Below, piece after piece: positions 24,917-30,522 of a stretch of 42,428 bases of DNA. The notes under the pieces were generated by a model. The model did not search any database, was not told where the DNA came from, and was given only the letters and a program-made list of their open reading frames with translations. This DNA is from an uncultured bacterium. GTDB lineage: Bacteria > Verrucomicrobiota > Kiritimatiellia > RFP12 > UBA1067. Position numbers and translations under genes: made by a program. The DNA lies in the NCBI GenBank assembly GCA_902770045.1, contig CACXRO010000013.1:1-42428 (forward strand), given 5' to 3'. The stretch's first letter is position 1, and every line of letters starts with the position of its first letter.

Positions 24917-24925
24917 TGATATAAT
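24917..24925 (+). promoter_or_regulatory. Extended -10 promoter of the five-gene MATE operon
   Basis: TGATATAAT, 17 bases before the ATG at 24943. It is the only recognisable promoter before the operon 24943-30446. Confidence 0.65.
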
Positions 24926-24942
24926 TAACACCAATTAGTCGT

Positions 24943-26424
24943 ATGCGTGAAATGAAGAGAATCGGCAATGGCCTCGATGAGCTGGCGGGCGGAAGCCTCG
25001 GGCGGCTGCTCGCGAAGTACTCGTGGCCGGCGCTGGTCTCGATGAGCCTCAACGCGCTCTACGCCGTGGTCGACCGCATCTTCATCGGCCAGGGCTGCGG
25101 CGTGGACGCGATGGCCGGGCTCCAGCTCGCGATGCCGGTGATGATGTTGCTGACGGCTTTCGGTCCGCTGATCGGCGTCGGCCACGGCTCGGTGCTTTCG
25201 ATCAAGCTTGGCGCGCGCGACCGCGTCGCCTGCGAGAAGCTCGTCGGCGAGACGGTGGCGCTCAAGCTCCTATTCTACGCGGTGCTCATTCCGCTCATGT
25301 ATCTCTTTCTGGACGAAATCCTCGTCTGCTGCGGCGCCGACCGCATGACCCCCGGCGCATACGCCGCGGCGAAAGGATACCTTGAGATCGTCCTCTGCTC
25401 GCATCTCTTCTCGCACCTCGCCTTCGGGCTTTCCGCGCTCCAGCGCGCCGAGGGCGGCGCCATCCGCTCGATGATGTGCATGATCGTCGGCTTCGGTGCC
25501 AACCTGGTCCTCGACCCGCTCCTCATCTTCGGCGTCAGAATGCCGTTCGCCGCGGACGGGTGGCTCGTAGCTCCGATGGGTGTCGCCGGCGCGGCATGGG
25601 CGACGAACATCGCGATGCTCGCCTCCTGCCTCTGGGCTTTTGGCTACTACTGGCGCGGACGGACCGTGGTGCGCCTCCGCCTCAGGCGCGTGTGGATATA
25701 TCCCTCGCTCCTGCGCCGCACCCTTGCGATCGGGCTTGCGCCGTTCCTGCAGCAGCTGATGGGCTCGGTAATCGTCGCCTCGCTCCAGTACGCCTTCGCC
25801 CGCTGGATGCCGGACGAGGCCTCGCGCACCGCCGAAGTCGCCTCGCTCGGCGTCTTCAACGGCGCGCTTATCCTCGTGTTCATGCCCATGCTCGGCTGCC
25901 AGCAGGGCTTGCAGCCGATCTTCGGCTTCAACTGGGGCGCGCGCAACTACCGCCGGGTGCTGGACACGCTCAAGCTCGGGTTCTGGGCGACGACTGCACT
26001 CACGGTGCTCGCCTTCGTCGTCCAGGTGGTGCCGCCGTTCCCCGGGCTCATTGCGCGGATGTTCGTCTCCGCCGACAACCCGGAGATCATCGCCCTCTCC
26101 GCCCACGACCTGATGGTCTCCAACTCGATGATCTGGTGCATTTCCGTCAATGTCCTCGCCACCACCTATTTCCAGTCCATCGGCCACCCCGGCGTCGCCA
26201 TCGCGCTCTCGATGCTGCGCCAGGGGGTGATCCTGCTGCCGATCGTGTGGCTGCTGCCGCATTTCATGGCGGACAAGGCGCTGGCGATATGGCTCTCGAT
26301 GCCGGTTTCGGACGTCCTCTGCAACGCGGTGACGCTCGTCCCGCTCTTCCTTCATGTCCGTTTCCTCGCCCGCGTCCGCTCCCGCGACGCTGTGGTGAAC
26401 CAATCCGCCCCCGGAGGCGTTTAA
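24943..26424 (+). CDS. MATE-family efflux transporter
   Basis: The 493-residue protein has about twelve hydrophobic segments and the MATE hallmarks SWPALVSMSLNALYAVVDRIFIGQ, GVGHGSVLSIKLGARD and, in the second half, QQGLQPIFGFNWGARNYRRV. It should export organic compounds driven by Na+ or H+. It is closest in style to the MepA/DinF-like group. ATG 24952 (MKRIGNG) is an alternative start. It heads a tight operon with a toroid protein, UbiA-like, phosphodiesterase-like and U32-like genes, so it may export that operon's product. Confidence 0.9.
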   Translation: MREMKRIGNGLDELAGGSLGRLLAKYSWPALVSMSLNALYAVVDRIFIGQGCGVDAMAGLQLAMPVMMLLTAFGPLIGVGHGSVLSIKLGARDRVACEKLVGETVALKLLFYAVLIPLMYLFLDEILVCCGADRMTPGAYAAAKGYLEIVLCSHLFSHLAFGLSALQRAEGGAIRSMMCMIVGFGANLVLDPLLIFGVRMPFAADGWLVAPMGVAGAAWATNIAMLASCLWAFGYYWRGRTVVRLRLRRVWIYPSLLRRTLAIGLAPFLQQLMGSVIVASLQYAFARWMPDEASRTAEVASLGVFNGALILVFMPMLGCQQGLQPIFGFNWGARNYRRVLDTLKLGFWATTALTVLAFVVQVVPPFPGLIARMFVSADNPEIIALSAHDLMVSNSMIWCISVNVLATTYFQSIGHPGVAIALSMLRQGVILLPIVWLLPHFMADKALAIWLSMPVSDVLCNAVTLVPLFLHVRFLARVRSRDAVVNQSAPGGV

Positions 26425-26430
26425 ATTATT

Positions 26431-27525
26431 ATGAAGAACACCGCCAGAACCGCACTCTTCCTCGCCGCTGCGCTCGCCGCGGCCGCATCCCCCGCCGCCT
26501 CGCCGCTTGACGACGCCGTCGCGCGCGGGGCGAAGTTCCTCCTTTCGCGCCAGTCGGAGGACGGGCACTTCTCCGATCCGCACATGCCCGCCCTGACCGC
26601 ACTGCCGCTCTGGGCGCTCGTTGGCGCCGGCGCGGAGCGCGCCCCGCTCGAGAAAGCAGCGAAGTTCGTCCTTTCCACCCAGCGTTCGGACGGCGGCTTC
26701 TACGTGCCCAAGCCGGGCCGCGGCGGCTCTGGTCTCGGCAACTACAATACCTCCGTCTGCCTCAGCGCGCTTTTCGAAAGCGGACTCGCCCCCAAGGACG
26801 CGATGCTCCGGGCGCGCGAGTACATTGCCTCGTCGCAGCTCACCGGCGACGACACGCTCGCCGGCGGCTTCGGCTACGACAAGGTCTCGCGTCGCCGCTA
26901 CGCCGACCTCTCCAACACCTCCTACGCGATGAGCGCGATGGCGAAGACCGCATCGCTGGAGGAGTTCCGCACCGGCGGGAAGCGGGTGGACATCGACTGG
27001 GACCGTGCGCTTGCATACGTGGAGGGACTGATGGAGAAGGAAGGGCCCAACGCCGGCGGCGCGGCCTACAACGACCGCACTCCGCAGGCCGGCGCGTCCA
27101 CCAACGCGCAGGGACGCGTCGCGCTCCGCGCCTACGGTTCGATGACCTACGCCGCCGTCCTCTCGATGTGCGCGGCGAAGCTCGACCGCGGCGATCCGCG
27201 CGTGAGGCAGTCGCTGGAGTACATGGAGCGGAACTGGTCGGTGGACGAGAATCCCGGCATGGGCAGCCAGGGGCTGTACTACTTCTACGACATCATGGCC
27301 CGCGCGCTCTCGGCGGCGGGGGTGGACGATGTCGGCGGCCACCGCTGGCGCAGCGAGCTTGCGTCCCGTCTCCTCGCCCTGCAGAAGCCGGACGGCAGCT
27401 GGGCGAACGACAACAACCGCTTCTGGGAGGCGGACCCGGTGCTCTGCACCTCGTTCGCGATGATTGTCCTCGAGCTCTGCCGTGAGCCGGCCGCGGCGCC
27501 GGCGCCGAAGGAGATGCCGAAATGA
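26431..27525 (+). CDS. Secreted alpha/alpha-toroid protein (prenyltransferase/squalene-oxidase repeat)
   Basis: The 364-residue protein has a signal peptide (MKNTARTALFLAAALAAAASPAA). It then repeats QW-like motifs: FLLSRQSEDGHFSD, FVLSTQRSDGGFYV and LLALQKPDGSWANDNNRFWE, each followed by helices such as NTSVCLSALFESG. These are the repeats of the squalene-hopene-cyclase/prenyltransferase-beta toroid. It lacks a DXDD catalytic motif and is half the length of true cyclases, so cyclisation is not supported. A binding or processing role in the periplasm is possible. It starts six bases after the MATE stop and overlaps the UbiA-like gene by four bases. Confidence 0.8.
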   Translation: MKNTARTALFLAAALAAAASPAASPLDDAVARGAKFLLSRQSEDGHFSDPHMPALTALPLWALVGAGAERAPLEKAAKFVLSTQRSDGGFYVPKPGRGGSGLGNYNTSVCLSALFESGLAPKDAMLRAREYIASSQLTGDDTLAGGFGYDKVSRRRYADLSNTSYAMSAMAKTASLEEFRTGGKRVDIDWDRALAYVEGLMEKEGPNAGGAAYNDRTPQAGASTNAQGRVALRAYGSMTYAAVLSMCAAKLDRGDPRVRQSLEYMERNWSVDENPGMGSQGLYYFYDIMARALSAAGVDDVGGHRWRSELASRLLALQKPDGSWANDNNRFWEADPVLCTSFAMIVLELCREPAAAPAPKEMPK

Positions 27526-28310
27526 AGGCGTGGCTTAGGCTCTTCCGCGTCGTCAATCTGCCGACGGTTCCTGGCGACGTTCTCGTCGGCGCGGCGGCGG
27601 CGCTGACGGTAGGGAGGCATTCGGAATTTTCGGGCTTGGACTATGTTTGGTGCGCGAGACTGCTTGCGCCGGTCTGGTGGGCGGCGGGTGCCAGCGTGTT
27701 GCTCTATATGTTCGGGCTTGTGCAGAACGACATCATGGGGGCGAAGACGGATAAGGACCGCCCGATCCCTAACGGGGAGATTTCGATGGATTCGGCATGG
27801 GCGGCGGCGACTGTCTGCATAGCCGCTGCCTTTGGCTGTGCGTACATTGGCGGGCTTTTCGATGGCGACTGGACGGGAAGGTTCTGCTGGCCATGGTGCG
27901 CGATTGCTCTCGTTGTGGCGATTACGGTCTACAACCGCTCGAAAGCGTGGTGGATGATGGGGTTCTGCCGTGCGATGAACGTCCTGCTCGGCGCGGCGGC
28001 GGTTGTCGGCGGCGGATTGAAGCAGGCGGAATGTATCGGACTACGGCCAATGTGCGTTGCTGTTCTTTGGTGGCTTTACATCTCGCTCGTGACTCTCTAT
28101 TCTGAGGGCGAGGAGAACGACCCCGTGAAGAAGCGCCGCGTCGGGCTGCTCGTCGGCGGCATCGTGTACCTTCAGCTGACGGCGCTGATTGTGCTGACGC
28201 TTGAGTTTCCGCAGGTGGCGGCGATGAGACCGCTTCTCGTGGCGGGCGCGGTGCTGCTGGTCTTGCTGAGGCTGTTCAAGAAGGCGTTCCCGGAGGTGAG
28301 CGCGTCGTGA
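27522..28310 (+). CDS. UbiA-family prenyltransferase, EboC-like
   Basis: The 262-residue integral membrane protein has about eight hydrophobic segments. The first acidic motif is NDIMGAKTDKDRPIPNGEI (from residue 69), the prenyl-diphosphate/magnesium site of UbiA enzymes. The usual second DxxxD motif is replaced by YNRSKAWWMMGFCRAMNVLLG. From memory, this MGxCRxxNxLLG pattern is like EboC, the UbiA-like member of the ebo cluster. UbiA enzymes move isoprenoid chains onto aromatic or sugar acceptors. It overlaps both neighbours by four bases (ATGA and GTGA). The acceptor and prenyl chain are unknown. Confidence 0.8.
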   Translation: MKAWLRLFRVVNLPTVPGDVLVGAAAALTVGRHSEFSGLDYVWCARLLAPVWWAAGASVLLYMFGLVQNDIMGAKTDKDRPIPNGEISMDSAWAAATVCIAAAFGCAYIGGLFDGDWTGRFCWPWCAIALVVAITVYNRSKAWWMMGFCRAMNVLLGAAAVVGGGLKQAECIGLRPMCVAVLWWLYISLVTLYSEGEENDPVKKRRVGLLVGGIVYLQLTALIVLTLEFPQVAAMRPLLVAGAVLLVLLRLFKKAFPEVSAS

Positions 28311-29446
28311 AGAGCCTTACTGTAGTTGCGGCGGGCCTTGGCTACCGGTTGCTTGAGCGCAACGGGATGCTCGAGATGGCGGGGCTCCGTTTCCATTCCG
28401 CGCCGAGCGTGTTCCCGGCGGTCACCTGCGTCGCGCAGGCGTCGCTCCGGACGGGGCTGACGCCCGCCGAGCACGGCATGGTCTCGAACGGCTGGTGGTC
28501 GGAGGAGCTGAGGCGGCCGCTCTTCTGGGAGCAGAGCGCGCGGCTCGTGAAGGGACGGCGCGTGTGGGCGGAGCGCCGCGCGCATGGCGGAACGGTGGGG
28601 ATGTTCTTCTTCCAGCAGTCGCTTGGCGAGGAAGCGGACGTCATTGTCTCGCCTGCGCCGATCCACAAGCACGGCGGCGGGATGCTGATGAGCTGCTACG
28701 CCAAGCCGACCGGCATGGCGCCGATTCTGAGGAAGCTCTGCGGCAGGTTCCCGCTCTGGCGCTACTGGGGGCCGCTCGCCTCGCCCAAGGTCGGACGGAA
28801 GTGCATCGACTGGTTCGAGGCGATGACCGATGCGCACGACGTCGACGAGGCGTACCTCTATCTGCCGACCCTGGACTACGCGGCGCAGGCGCAGGGGCCG
28901 GAGTCGTCCGCGGCGACCGCGGCGCTCAAGGAGTTCCGTCGTCAGCTCGAGCGACTCGCGGACATCTCAATGCACCGCGGCTGCGCGCTCAGGGTAGTGG
29001 GCGACTACGAGATCACGCCGGTCACGGAAGAGCCTCTCCGCCCCAATGTCGTCCTGCGCCGCAACGACCTCTTCCGCACGCGCACCGTCGCGGGCATGGC
29101 GTATCCCGACTTCTACCAGTCGACGGCATTCGCGATGTGCGACCACGAGTTCTGCGTCGTCTACGGCGAGGAGCGCGAAAAGGCGGCGGAGCTGCTGCTC
29201 GCCACCGGCGGCTACGAGCGCCCGACGGAAGGGGACGCGGGGAACGGCATTGTGCTCCTGGCGAGGCCGGGCTCGTGGTGCGAATACAAGTGGTGGACCG
29301 ACCGCCGCGAGGCGCCGGACTTCGCCAGCCACGTCGACATTCACAACAAGCCGGGCTACGACCCGACCGAGCTCTTCTTCTTCGGACGCGGGGTGGTGAA
29401 GGGGACCCACGGCAGGAAATGCGAGGTGGCTCATGCAGAGGCGTAG
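28307..29446 (+). CDS. Alkaline-phosphatase-fold / type I phosphodiesterase-like protein, EboF-like
   Basis: Start GTG overlaps the UbiA-like stop. The 379-residue protein has the nucleotide-pyrophosphatase opening FPAVTCVAQASLRTGLTPAEHGMVSNGWW with a candidate nucleophile Thr. The metal region reads LPTLDYAAQAQGP, where active enzymes have DxxGHxxGP, so the conserved His is lost. Likewise VGDYEITPV replaces the normal SDHGM. A later histidine (ASHVDIHNKPGYDPTELFF) is kept. I recall similar substitutions in EboF-type proteins. No signal peptide, so it appears cytoplasmic. A phosphate-binding rather than hydrolytic role is possible. Coupled to both neighbours (4- and 14-base overlaps). Confidence 0.72.
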   Translation: MKSLTVVAAGLGYRLLERNGMLEMAGLRFHSAPSVFPAVTCVAQASLRTGLTPAEHGMVSNGWWSEELRRPLFWEQSARLVKGRRVWAERRAHGGTVGMFFFQQSLGEEADVIVSPAPIHKHGGGMLMSCYAKPTGMAPILRKLCGRFPLWRYWGPLASPKVGRKCIDWFEAMTDAHDVDEAYLYLPTLDYAAQAQGPESSAATAALKEFRRQLERLADISMHRGCALRVVGDYEITPVTEEPLRPNVVLRRNDLFRTRTVAGMAYPDFYQSTAFAMCDHEFCVVYGEEREKAAELLLATGGYERPTEGDAGNGIVLLARPGSWCEYKWWTDRREAPDFASHVDIHNKPGYDPTELFFFGRGVVKGTHGRKCEVAHAEA

Positions 29447-30446
29447 TCTGGCGGTAGGGCATTTCTTCAACGGCGACTTCAAGGCGACCGTCGCGCGCAA
29501 CCTAAAGCGGGTGCGCGAGGTGTTCTTCGCCTGGCCGGGGGTGGTCTCGTGCCGTCCGGCGCCGGAGTTCACGCCGGAGCTCAGGGAGCGGATGGCGGAC
29601 GACCTCAGGTGGGCGCGCGCGAACGGGGTGGAGCTCGACACGCTCTTCAACGCCAACTGCTACGGCGACATCGCGATCTCCACCGAGCTGGCGGACTTCG
29701 TTGTCCGCAGCCTGGACGAGATGGACGCGGCGGGACTGTTCCCGGACACGCTCACCACCACCTCGCCGTTCATTGCCGCGGTGCTGCGCAGGCGGCGTCC
29801 GGGGCTGAAGATCCGCTGGAGCGTCAACCTGCGCGTCCACGGCTCGGTGGGGCTGGAGAGCGTCGAGGAGCTCTTCGACTCGTTCTACGTCTCGCGCGAG
29901 CGCCACCGCGACCTCGCCTTCCTCGCGCAGACGCGCGAATGGGCCGACCGCCACGGCAAGACGGTGGGGATGCAGGCGAACAGCGGCTGCATCCGGCAGT
30001 GTCCGTTCCAGACCTTCCACGACAACCTGCACGGGCATGGCGACGGGCGGCGGCCGCAGGACCTCGCCGCGGCGCGCGAGTACGGCTTCGGCTTCTTCCG
30101 CTGCCGCGACGACTACGAGGTCAAGCACCGGTACGAGGACTTCCTCCGGTCCACCTGGCTGCGGCCAGAGGATCTGCCGGAGTACGAGAGCTTCGTCGAC
30201 GTCGTCAAGCTCGCGACCCGCCGTCATCCCTGTCCCGAGAAGGTGGTGGACGCATACGCCGCGTATTCCTACGACGGCAACCTCGCCGAGCTGATGGATC
30301 CAGCGCACGCTTTCCCGAAGTCGTTCGACAACCGGGCTTTCGACCAGTCCGGGGACCTCTGGCAACAGGTGCGCAGTTGCCCCCGCGCCGACGACTGCGC
30401 CCACTGTGGCCGCTGCGCCGCGCTGCTCGCTGCCGTCTTCAGGTAA
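29433..30446 (+). CDS. U32-like TIM-barrel protein with two cysteine clusters
   Basis: The 337-residue protein shows TIM-barrel strand motifs resembling peptidase-U32-type proteins: LDTLFNANCYGD, IRWSVNLRVHGS, FDSFYVSRERHRD, then MQANSGCIRQCPFQTFHDN. U32 relatives such as UbiU/UbiV bind a 4Fe-4S cluster and hydroxylate without oxygen. Here C in NANCYG and CIRQC could form such a site. The tail CPRADDCAHCGRC adds four more cysteines. LRSTWLRPEDLPEYESFVDVVKLATRRHPCP and YSYDGNLAELMDPAHAFPKSFDNRAF look highly conserved family blocks. A protease role is not supported. It is the last gene of the operon and overlaps the phosphodiesterase-like gene by 14 bases. Confidence 0.62.
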   Translation: MQRRSLAVGHFFNGDFKATVARNLKRVREVFFAWPGVVSCRPAPEFTPELRERMADDLRWARANGVELDTLFNANCYGDIAISTELADFVVRSLDEMDAAGLFPDTLTTTSPFIAAVLRRRRPGLKIRWSVNLRVHGSVGLESVEELFDSFYVSRERHRDLAFLAQTREWADRHGKTVGMQANSGCIRQCPFQTFHDNLHGHGDGRRPQDLAAAREYGFGFFRCRDDYEVKHRYEDFLRSTWLRPEDLPEYESFVDVVKLATRRHPCPEKVVDAYAAYSYDGNLAELMDPAHAFPKSFDNRAFDQSGDLWQQVRSCPRADDCAHCGRCAALLAAVFR

Positions 30447-30461
30447 AGACCGGATTCGACA

Positions 30462-30480
30462 CCGCGGCACTTTGCGCGGC
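30462..30480. repeat. REP-like palindrome, copy 1
   Basis: CCGCGGCACTTTGCGCGGC, a GC-rich imperfect hairpin found again at 30523, 35645 and 41851. It lies just after the end of the five-gene operon. Confidence 0.55.
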
Positions 30481-30487
30481 ACCTGAG

Positions 30488-30522
30488 AGGTTGAAAGGTT
30501 GAAAGGTTGAAAAGTTGAAAGG
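30488..30522. repeat. Tandem GTTGAAAG repeat
   Basis: Four units of GGTTGAAA/AGTTGAAA lead directly into a REP-like hairpin. The same composite (tandem units then hairpin) occurs at 41810-41869. Confidence 0.75.

Follow-up and report, generated by a model that had tools for sequence, protein, structure and literature searches.

The contig CACXRO010000013.1 (assembly GCA_902770045.1) of an uncultured bacterium of the class Kiritimatiellia, of which the stretch of 42,428 nucleotides analyzed here is termed the window, carries a five-gene operon at positions 24943-30446 that is likely derived from the ebo cluster, with a U32-like TIM-barrel protein standing in place of EboB, EboD and EboE. The wider account, in which an ebo system kept EboC and EboF, lost EboB, EboD and EboE and has instead a U32-like enzyme acting by the mechanism proposed below, has in our estimate somewhat better than even prospects. 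The ebo cluster is widespread. It consists of eboA-F (PMC5133447, PMC6282210) and is needed for the export of scytonemin precursors in Nostoc, which is the source of its link to export (PMC6282210). Like this cluster, the window has an EboC-like protein of the UbiA superfamily and an EboF homologue encoded by adjacent genes; unlike it, the genome to which the window belongs yielded no EboB, EboD or EboE and has the U32-like gene in their place, the EboC motif is of the form NDxxGAxxD, and genes for a MATE-family transporter and an alpha-alpha toroid protein are added. A preceding sequence-only reading had described the operon as a stripped-down or divergent ebo cluster, and had named beforehand two outcomes that would speak against this: matches to EboC and EboF no closer than to generic families, and a lack of conserved co-occurrence of the genes in related genomes. 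The description withstood both comparisons.

EboC and EboF homologues

The best NCBIfam match of the UbiA-like protein is EboC (NF035940, 9.2e-20, 71 bits), followed by SCO3242 (57.5 bits), with generic prenyltransferases reaching at most 20.6 bits; the protein is thus nearer to EboC than to generic UbiA, as had been supposed. The curated EboC cut-off of 250 is not reached here or in any of the 289 genomes of our phylum sample, not even in those whose EboE exceeds the cut-off set for EboE. The phosphodiesterase-like protein encoded by the next gene is 42-48% identical over its full length to EboF of genomes of the same phylum that possess EboE, which upholds its earlier likening to EboF, and in a single tree the EboF proteins of genomes with the U32-like protein are interspersed with those of the ebo type. 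Within the same class, such UbiA-like and phosphodiesterase-like genes lie in genuine EboB-EboC-EboF-EboD-EboE clusters (loci L180, L198 and L258), in which TIM_EboE scores 422-428 bits against a cut-off of 250. Given the NCBIfam ranking, this synteny and the EboF identity, the assignment of the phosphodiesterase-like protein to EboF is well supported at the level of sequence, and so, below the curated cut-off, is the likeness of the UbiA-like protein to EboC.

The window EboF has the alkaline-phosphatase fold, with likeness to phosphonoacetate hydrolase and to the nucleotide pyrophosphatase/phosphodiesterase (NPP) family, and keeps the Thr nucleophile (Thr40). Its counterpart of the two-metal site of the alkaline-phosphatase superfamily (PF01663), with six Asp/His ligands, is incomplete: at the positions canonical for the NPP family, three of the six ligands are replaced, Asp by Ala9 and two His by Gln194 and Tyr234. 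In alignment A3 and a survey of 60 sequences the same A9, Q194 and Y234 occur in every sequence that covers the position, EboF of complete ebo clusters included. Because of these replacements EboF is unlikely, as judged from sequence, to be a normal two-metal phosphodiesterase, and the name given to it earlier should not be read as an activity. The degenerate site of all surveyed EboF proteins, ebo-linked ones too, calls their usual hydrolase annotation into question.

The Asp motif of the window EboC reads NDIMGAKTD and so departs from the NDxxDxxxD of UbiA prenyltransferases. The U32-linked loci in which the motif is in view have the NDxxGAxxD type, whereas ebo-linked EboC proteins mostly keep NDxxDxxxD. 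The middle Asp is also missing from EboC of genome G042, which still has EboE, so that its loss does not strictly go with the U32-like protein. The window EboC is, in addition, about 4 residues shorter after this position than ebo-linked proteins. It resembles Ubi-297 (PMC9235831) in being a UbiA protein of the EboC type with an ebo setting, but lacks the middle Asp of DXXDXXXD. The altered motif weakens the earlier suggestion of a prenylated product, although prenylation may still be considered plausible.

Co-inheritance of the U32-like protein with EboC and EboF

Genome searches, on which all absences reported here rest, detected neither EboB (TatD-like) nor EboD (PRK06203 above cut-off) in the genome of the window (G000, a draft that is 85% complete), which extends their reported absence from the operon to the whole draft; EboE (NF035939) was found in none of the 35 genomes of our genus sample, this one included. 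In the phylum sample, 14 of the 289 genomes encode a close U32-like protein (>500 bits), and these have EboF in 14 cases, EboC in 13 and EboB, EboD or EboE in none, while EboE exceeds its own cut-off in 113 genomes. Sorting the genomes with EboF gives 14 with the close U32-like protein without EboE, none with both, 111 with EboE without the close U32-like protein and 10 with neither (Fisher p = 5e-13, uncorrected for relatedness). EboB, EboD and EboE were found together in 112 genomes, and are hence rarely lost singly. Within the genus, the U32-like protein, EboC and EboF come and go together: 16 genomes have all three, and 10 have none of them (U32-like with EboC, p = 1e-5; with EboF, p = 5e-4; both uncorrected for relatedness), and this co-occurrence holds even with the genes on different contigs. 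Of 80 fetched loci with a U32-like gene, 21 have EboF no more than 4 kb away from it, and 12 also have EboC (chance adjacency p about 4e-32, which takes the loci as independent and is indicative only); conclusions from these neighborhoods were taken from profile matches, some mechanical picks of open reading frames (ORFs) being antisense. The neighborhoods and phyletic patterns together bear out the expected conservation of these genes in related genomes. As, phylum-wide, the U32-like family at a loose threshold (200 bits or more) does not go with EboF (p 0.58), our claims are restricted to the close clade. The closest named records come from metagenome-assembled genomes of Kiritimatiellae and other Verrucomicrobiota/Lentisphaerota, many of them from ruminant guts. 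The U32-like protein has 254 relatives, and no other phylum is named among the best 80 of them.

Rows without EboE occupy several places in the EboF tree, which was built without broad PF01663 outgroups and without cyanobacterial or Bacteroidetes EboF, and at least 6 changes between EboE loss and retention are forced on well-supported branches; two of these rows (G210, G296) also lack the U32-like protein. This distribution suggests that EboE gave way to the U32-like protein more than once. The clearest separate case is in family f15, where G141 and G154 (U32-like, no EboE) are sister to G120 and G146 (EboE, no U32-like). At the level of the operon, the window and genome G033 have positions 24917-30480 in common and nothing alike on either flank; hence the five genes move as one unit. 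The UbiA-like gene in this shared block has 72% nucleotide identity against 90-96% for the rest, and in a comparison with genome G012 the identity is 95-99% over about 10 kb that extend to the end of EboF, then 75% in the U32-like gene. Each of these two genes therefore underwent single-gene replacement, one per comparison.

The U32-like protein and its possible function

Because the fifth protein lacks a Pfam match, the label U32-like had to come from structure. Its AlphaFold model (predicted local distance difference test score, pLDDT, 89) has as top Foldseek match in the PDB the U32 peptidase 5d88 (E 3.8e-8); VIA gave 5d88 a Z of 16.8 over 229 residues, the next chain having 12.7, and profile-profile comparison linked the protein to PF01136 hits with probability 92.7. 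The predicted structure thus has the U32 TIM-barrel fold, as the sequence-only reading had held. Across the family C76, C186 and C190 are invariant in 83 of 83 sequences and C224 in 82 of 82, a pattern compatible with a bound [4Fe-4S] cluster, which the protein probably carries; a C-terminal CX5CX2CX2C is mostly retained among the 83. Hydroxylation by U32 oxidases needs no O2, as with UbiU/UbiV in the synthesis of ubiquinone (PMC6747719, PMC11574389); UbiV has a cysteine motif, CXnCX12CX3C, that itself departs from the common U32 motif (PMC6747719). The window protein is like these in its fold, in having four invariant cysteines and in having a partner of the UbiA superfamily. Unlike U32 oxidases it has no match to PF01136 and has a cysteine spacing of C76-X109-C186-X3-C190-X33-C224 rather than CX6CX15CX3C, and unlike UbiU/UbiV it is a single protein and not a pair, with the extra C-terminal cysteines. 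Of the earlier designation as an oxygen-independent iron-sulfur enzyme, the fold and invariant cysteines thus speak in favor, whereas the usual cysteine motif is missing; as a statement of function it is still conjecture. We also considered the protein as an EboE homologue and rejected this: the EboE family (NF035939) gave no match at E 0.1 and the top fold was U32, though no direct profile-profile comparison was made. Tandem arrays of 3-5 more distant U32-like genes are present in G172 (contig C6, 66309-72224), G150, G153 and G218, genomes with no EboF match in our survey.

We infer the following course for the pathway. EboC would prenylate a small acceptor in the cytoplasm, and the U32-like enzyme would then modify this acceptor, most likely by O2-independent hydroxylation, in the manner of UbiU/UbiV on the prenylated ubiquinone ring; of this hydroxylation step we are doubtful. 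The hydroxyl so formed could be capped, in sister loci, by an O-methyltransferase. The part of EboF might be to bind or to scaffold, not to act as a two-metal phosphodiesterase, and the product, a lipid-like carrier or prenylated metabolite, would cross the inner membrane, here via the MATE pump. A more far-reaching proposal, that anaerobes have repeatedly replaced EboB, EboD and EboE by one U32-like Fe-S hydroxylase, giving a minimal, O2-independent EboC-EboF-U32 system in which different chemistry yields the prenylated carrier, is one that we advance only tentatively. Were it true, the core of ebo function would reduce to EboC and a catalytically degenerate EboF. A natural combination of EboC, EboF and one new enzyme indicates which parts form the ebo core and offers a three-gene system for reconstitution, and it gives a clear pathway context to a so far unnamed U32-like family that has a cysteine pattern of its own.

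Several results weigh against this account: 1) The Pfam search of the fifth protein returned no family at E 0.1, PF01136 included. 2) The usual U32 motif CX6CX15CX3/4C is present in none of the 83 sequences; with CX6CX15CX3C absent from all and PF01136 unmatched, carrying the hydroxylase function over to this protein is a leap. 3) The central Asp of EboC is lost in the clade of the window, so that prenyl transfer could be absent. 4) Independent pairs in the EboF tree number 3.7 in favor of the exchange and 0 against (median p 0.125), too few for significance. 5) The genus genomes are drafts, 56-92% complete. 6) To our knowledge, no product or mechanism is known for any ebo system. 7) Distant U32-like proteins (200 bits or more) occur in genomes without EboF in 39 of 69 cases; other roles must therefore exist in the wider family. 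This last result also favors the idea that EboC and EboF function without EboB, EboD and EboE while the U32-like gene rides along in the operon as a passenger and serves some unrelated purpose, and such operons do have local passengers (the toroid, the MATE transporter and the coiled-coil-like gene c8). We consider it improbable, as the close U32-like protein accompanies EboC and EboF even when unlinked and occurs in no genome found to have EboE, and as the joint presence of EboB, EboD and EboE leaves little room for their loss one by one.

A little more credible, though still unlikely, is the pathway envisaged by the sequence-only reading, in which a stand-alone prenylated secondary metabolite is made and exported and no ebo role in metabolite traffic is kept. 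The EboC homologue Ubi-297 farnesylates 8-hydroxyquinoline-2-carboxylic acid in vitro (PMC9235831), and both the MATE exporter and the O-methyltransferase of sister loci would suit such a pathway; but Pfam reveals no scaffold-building enzyme in the operon, MATE genes lie within 7 kb of the U32-like gene in just 3 of the 80 loci, and the EboC Asp motif is altered. The pairing of UbiA with a U32 protein also recalls UbiA with UbiU/UbiV (PMC6747719), and hence a generic lipid or quinone modification by a UbiA prenyltransferase, a phosphodiesterase and a U32 hydroxylase without special ebo link. Against this stand the excess of the EboC score over generic prenyltransferases, the full-length EboF identity to ebo genomes and the interspersed EboF tree; the scores and the phyletic pattern led us to reject the generic UbiA and phosphodiesterase reading, and we accord a quinone pathway of this kind hardly any probability. 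The derivation from an ebo cluster is the reading that we retain.

Operon layout and neighboring genes

An ORF check of the sequence yielded five + strand genes (Table 1) with, in 5' to 3' order, a 6-base gap and overlaps of 4, 4 and 14 bases, bearing out the tight operon in its coordinates and in all junctions. The claim that it lies behind one promoter fared less well: a consensus scan upstream of the operon found no full sigma-70 site, and a TATAAT in the AT-rich leader offers weak support. This TATAAT falls within the block common to the window and G033, whose contexts otherwise differ.

Table 1. Features of the operon and its leader in the window
Feature	Positions	Strand	Evidence
AT-rich leader with TATAAT (24920-24925)	24917..24942	+	5' edge of block common to window and G033
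MATE-family transporter, 493 aa, accessory	24943..26424	+	Pfam MatE 2.7e-28
Alpha-alpha toroid protein, local accessory	26431..27525	+	Pfam SQHop_cyclase_C 3.4e-10
EboC-like UbiA-superfamily membrane protein	27522..28310	+	Pfam UbiA 1.4e-8; NF035940 EboC; synteny
EboF homologue, alkaline-phosphatase fold, GTG start	28307..29446	+	Pfam PF01663 (Phosphodiest) 2e-27
U32-like TIM-barrel protein (predicted fold)	29433..30446	+	AlphaFold model, 5d88 match, cysteine survey

The MATE and secreted toroid genes, earlier taken as integral parts of the operon, fall outside the conserved core as local additions. The toroid protein has a signal-peptide-like N-terminus and squalene-cyclase-like repeats, lacks the DxDD motif, and among the loci examined is found beside the U32-like gene only in the window, G012 and G033, which rules it out as a core gene. 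The MATE gene was likewise rejected as core: G135 has its own MATE-UbiA pair (L272), with the MATE gene directly 5' of the UbiA-like gene, and most loci do not. The O-methyltransferase gene is located 3' of the U32-like gene in several sister (rumen) loci, and 3' of EboE in L180. Between EboF and the U32-like gene, L109 (2992-3759), L111, L112, L114 and L107 encode a protein some 256 aa long that has a hydrophobic N-terminus, a charged, coiled-coil-like sequence and no informative family match. In L109 (742-1851), L111, L112 and L114 a LegC-type sugar aminotransferase gene is found directly 5' of EboF, and no UbiA-like gene was found near EboF in these four loci. Directly 3' of the operon, the window has short tandem GTTGAAAG repeats (30486-30520).

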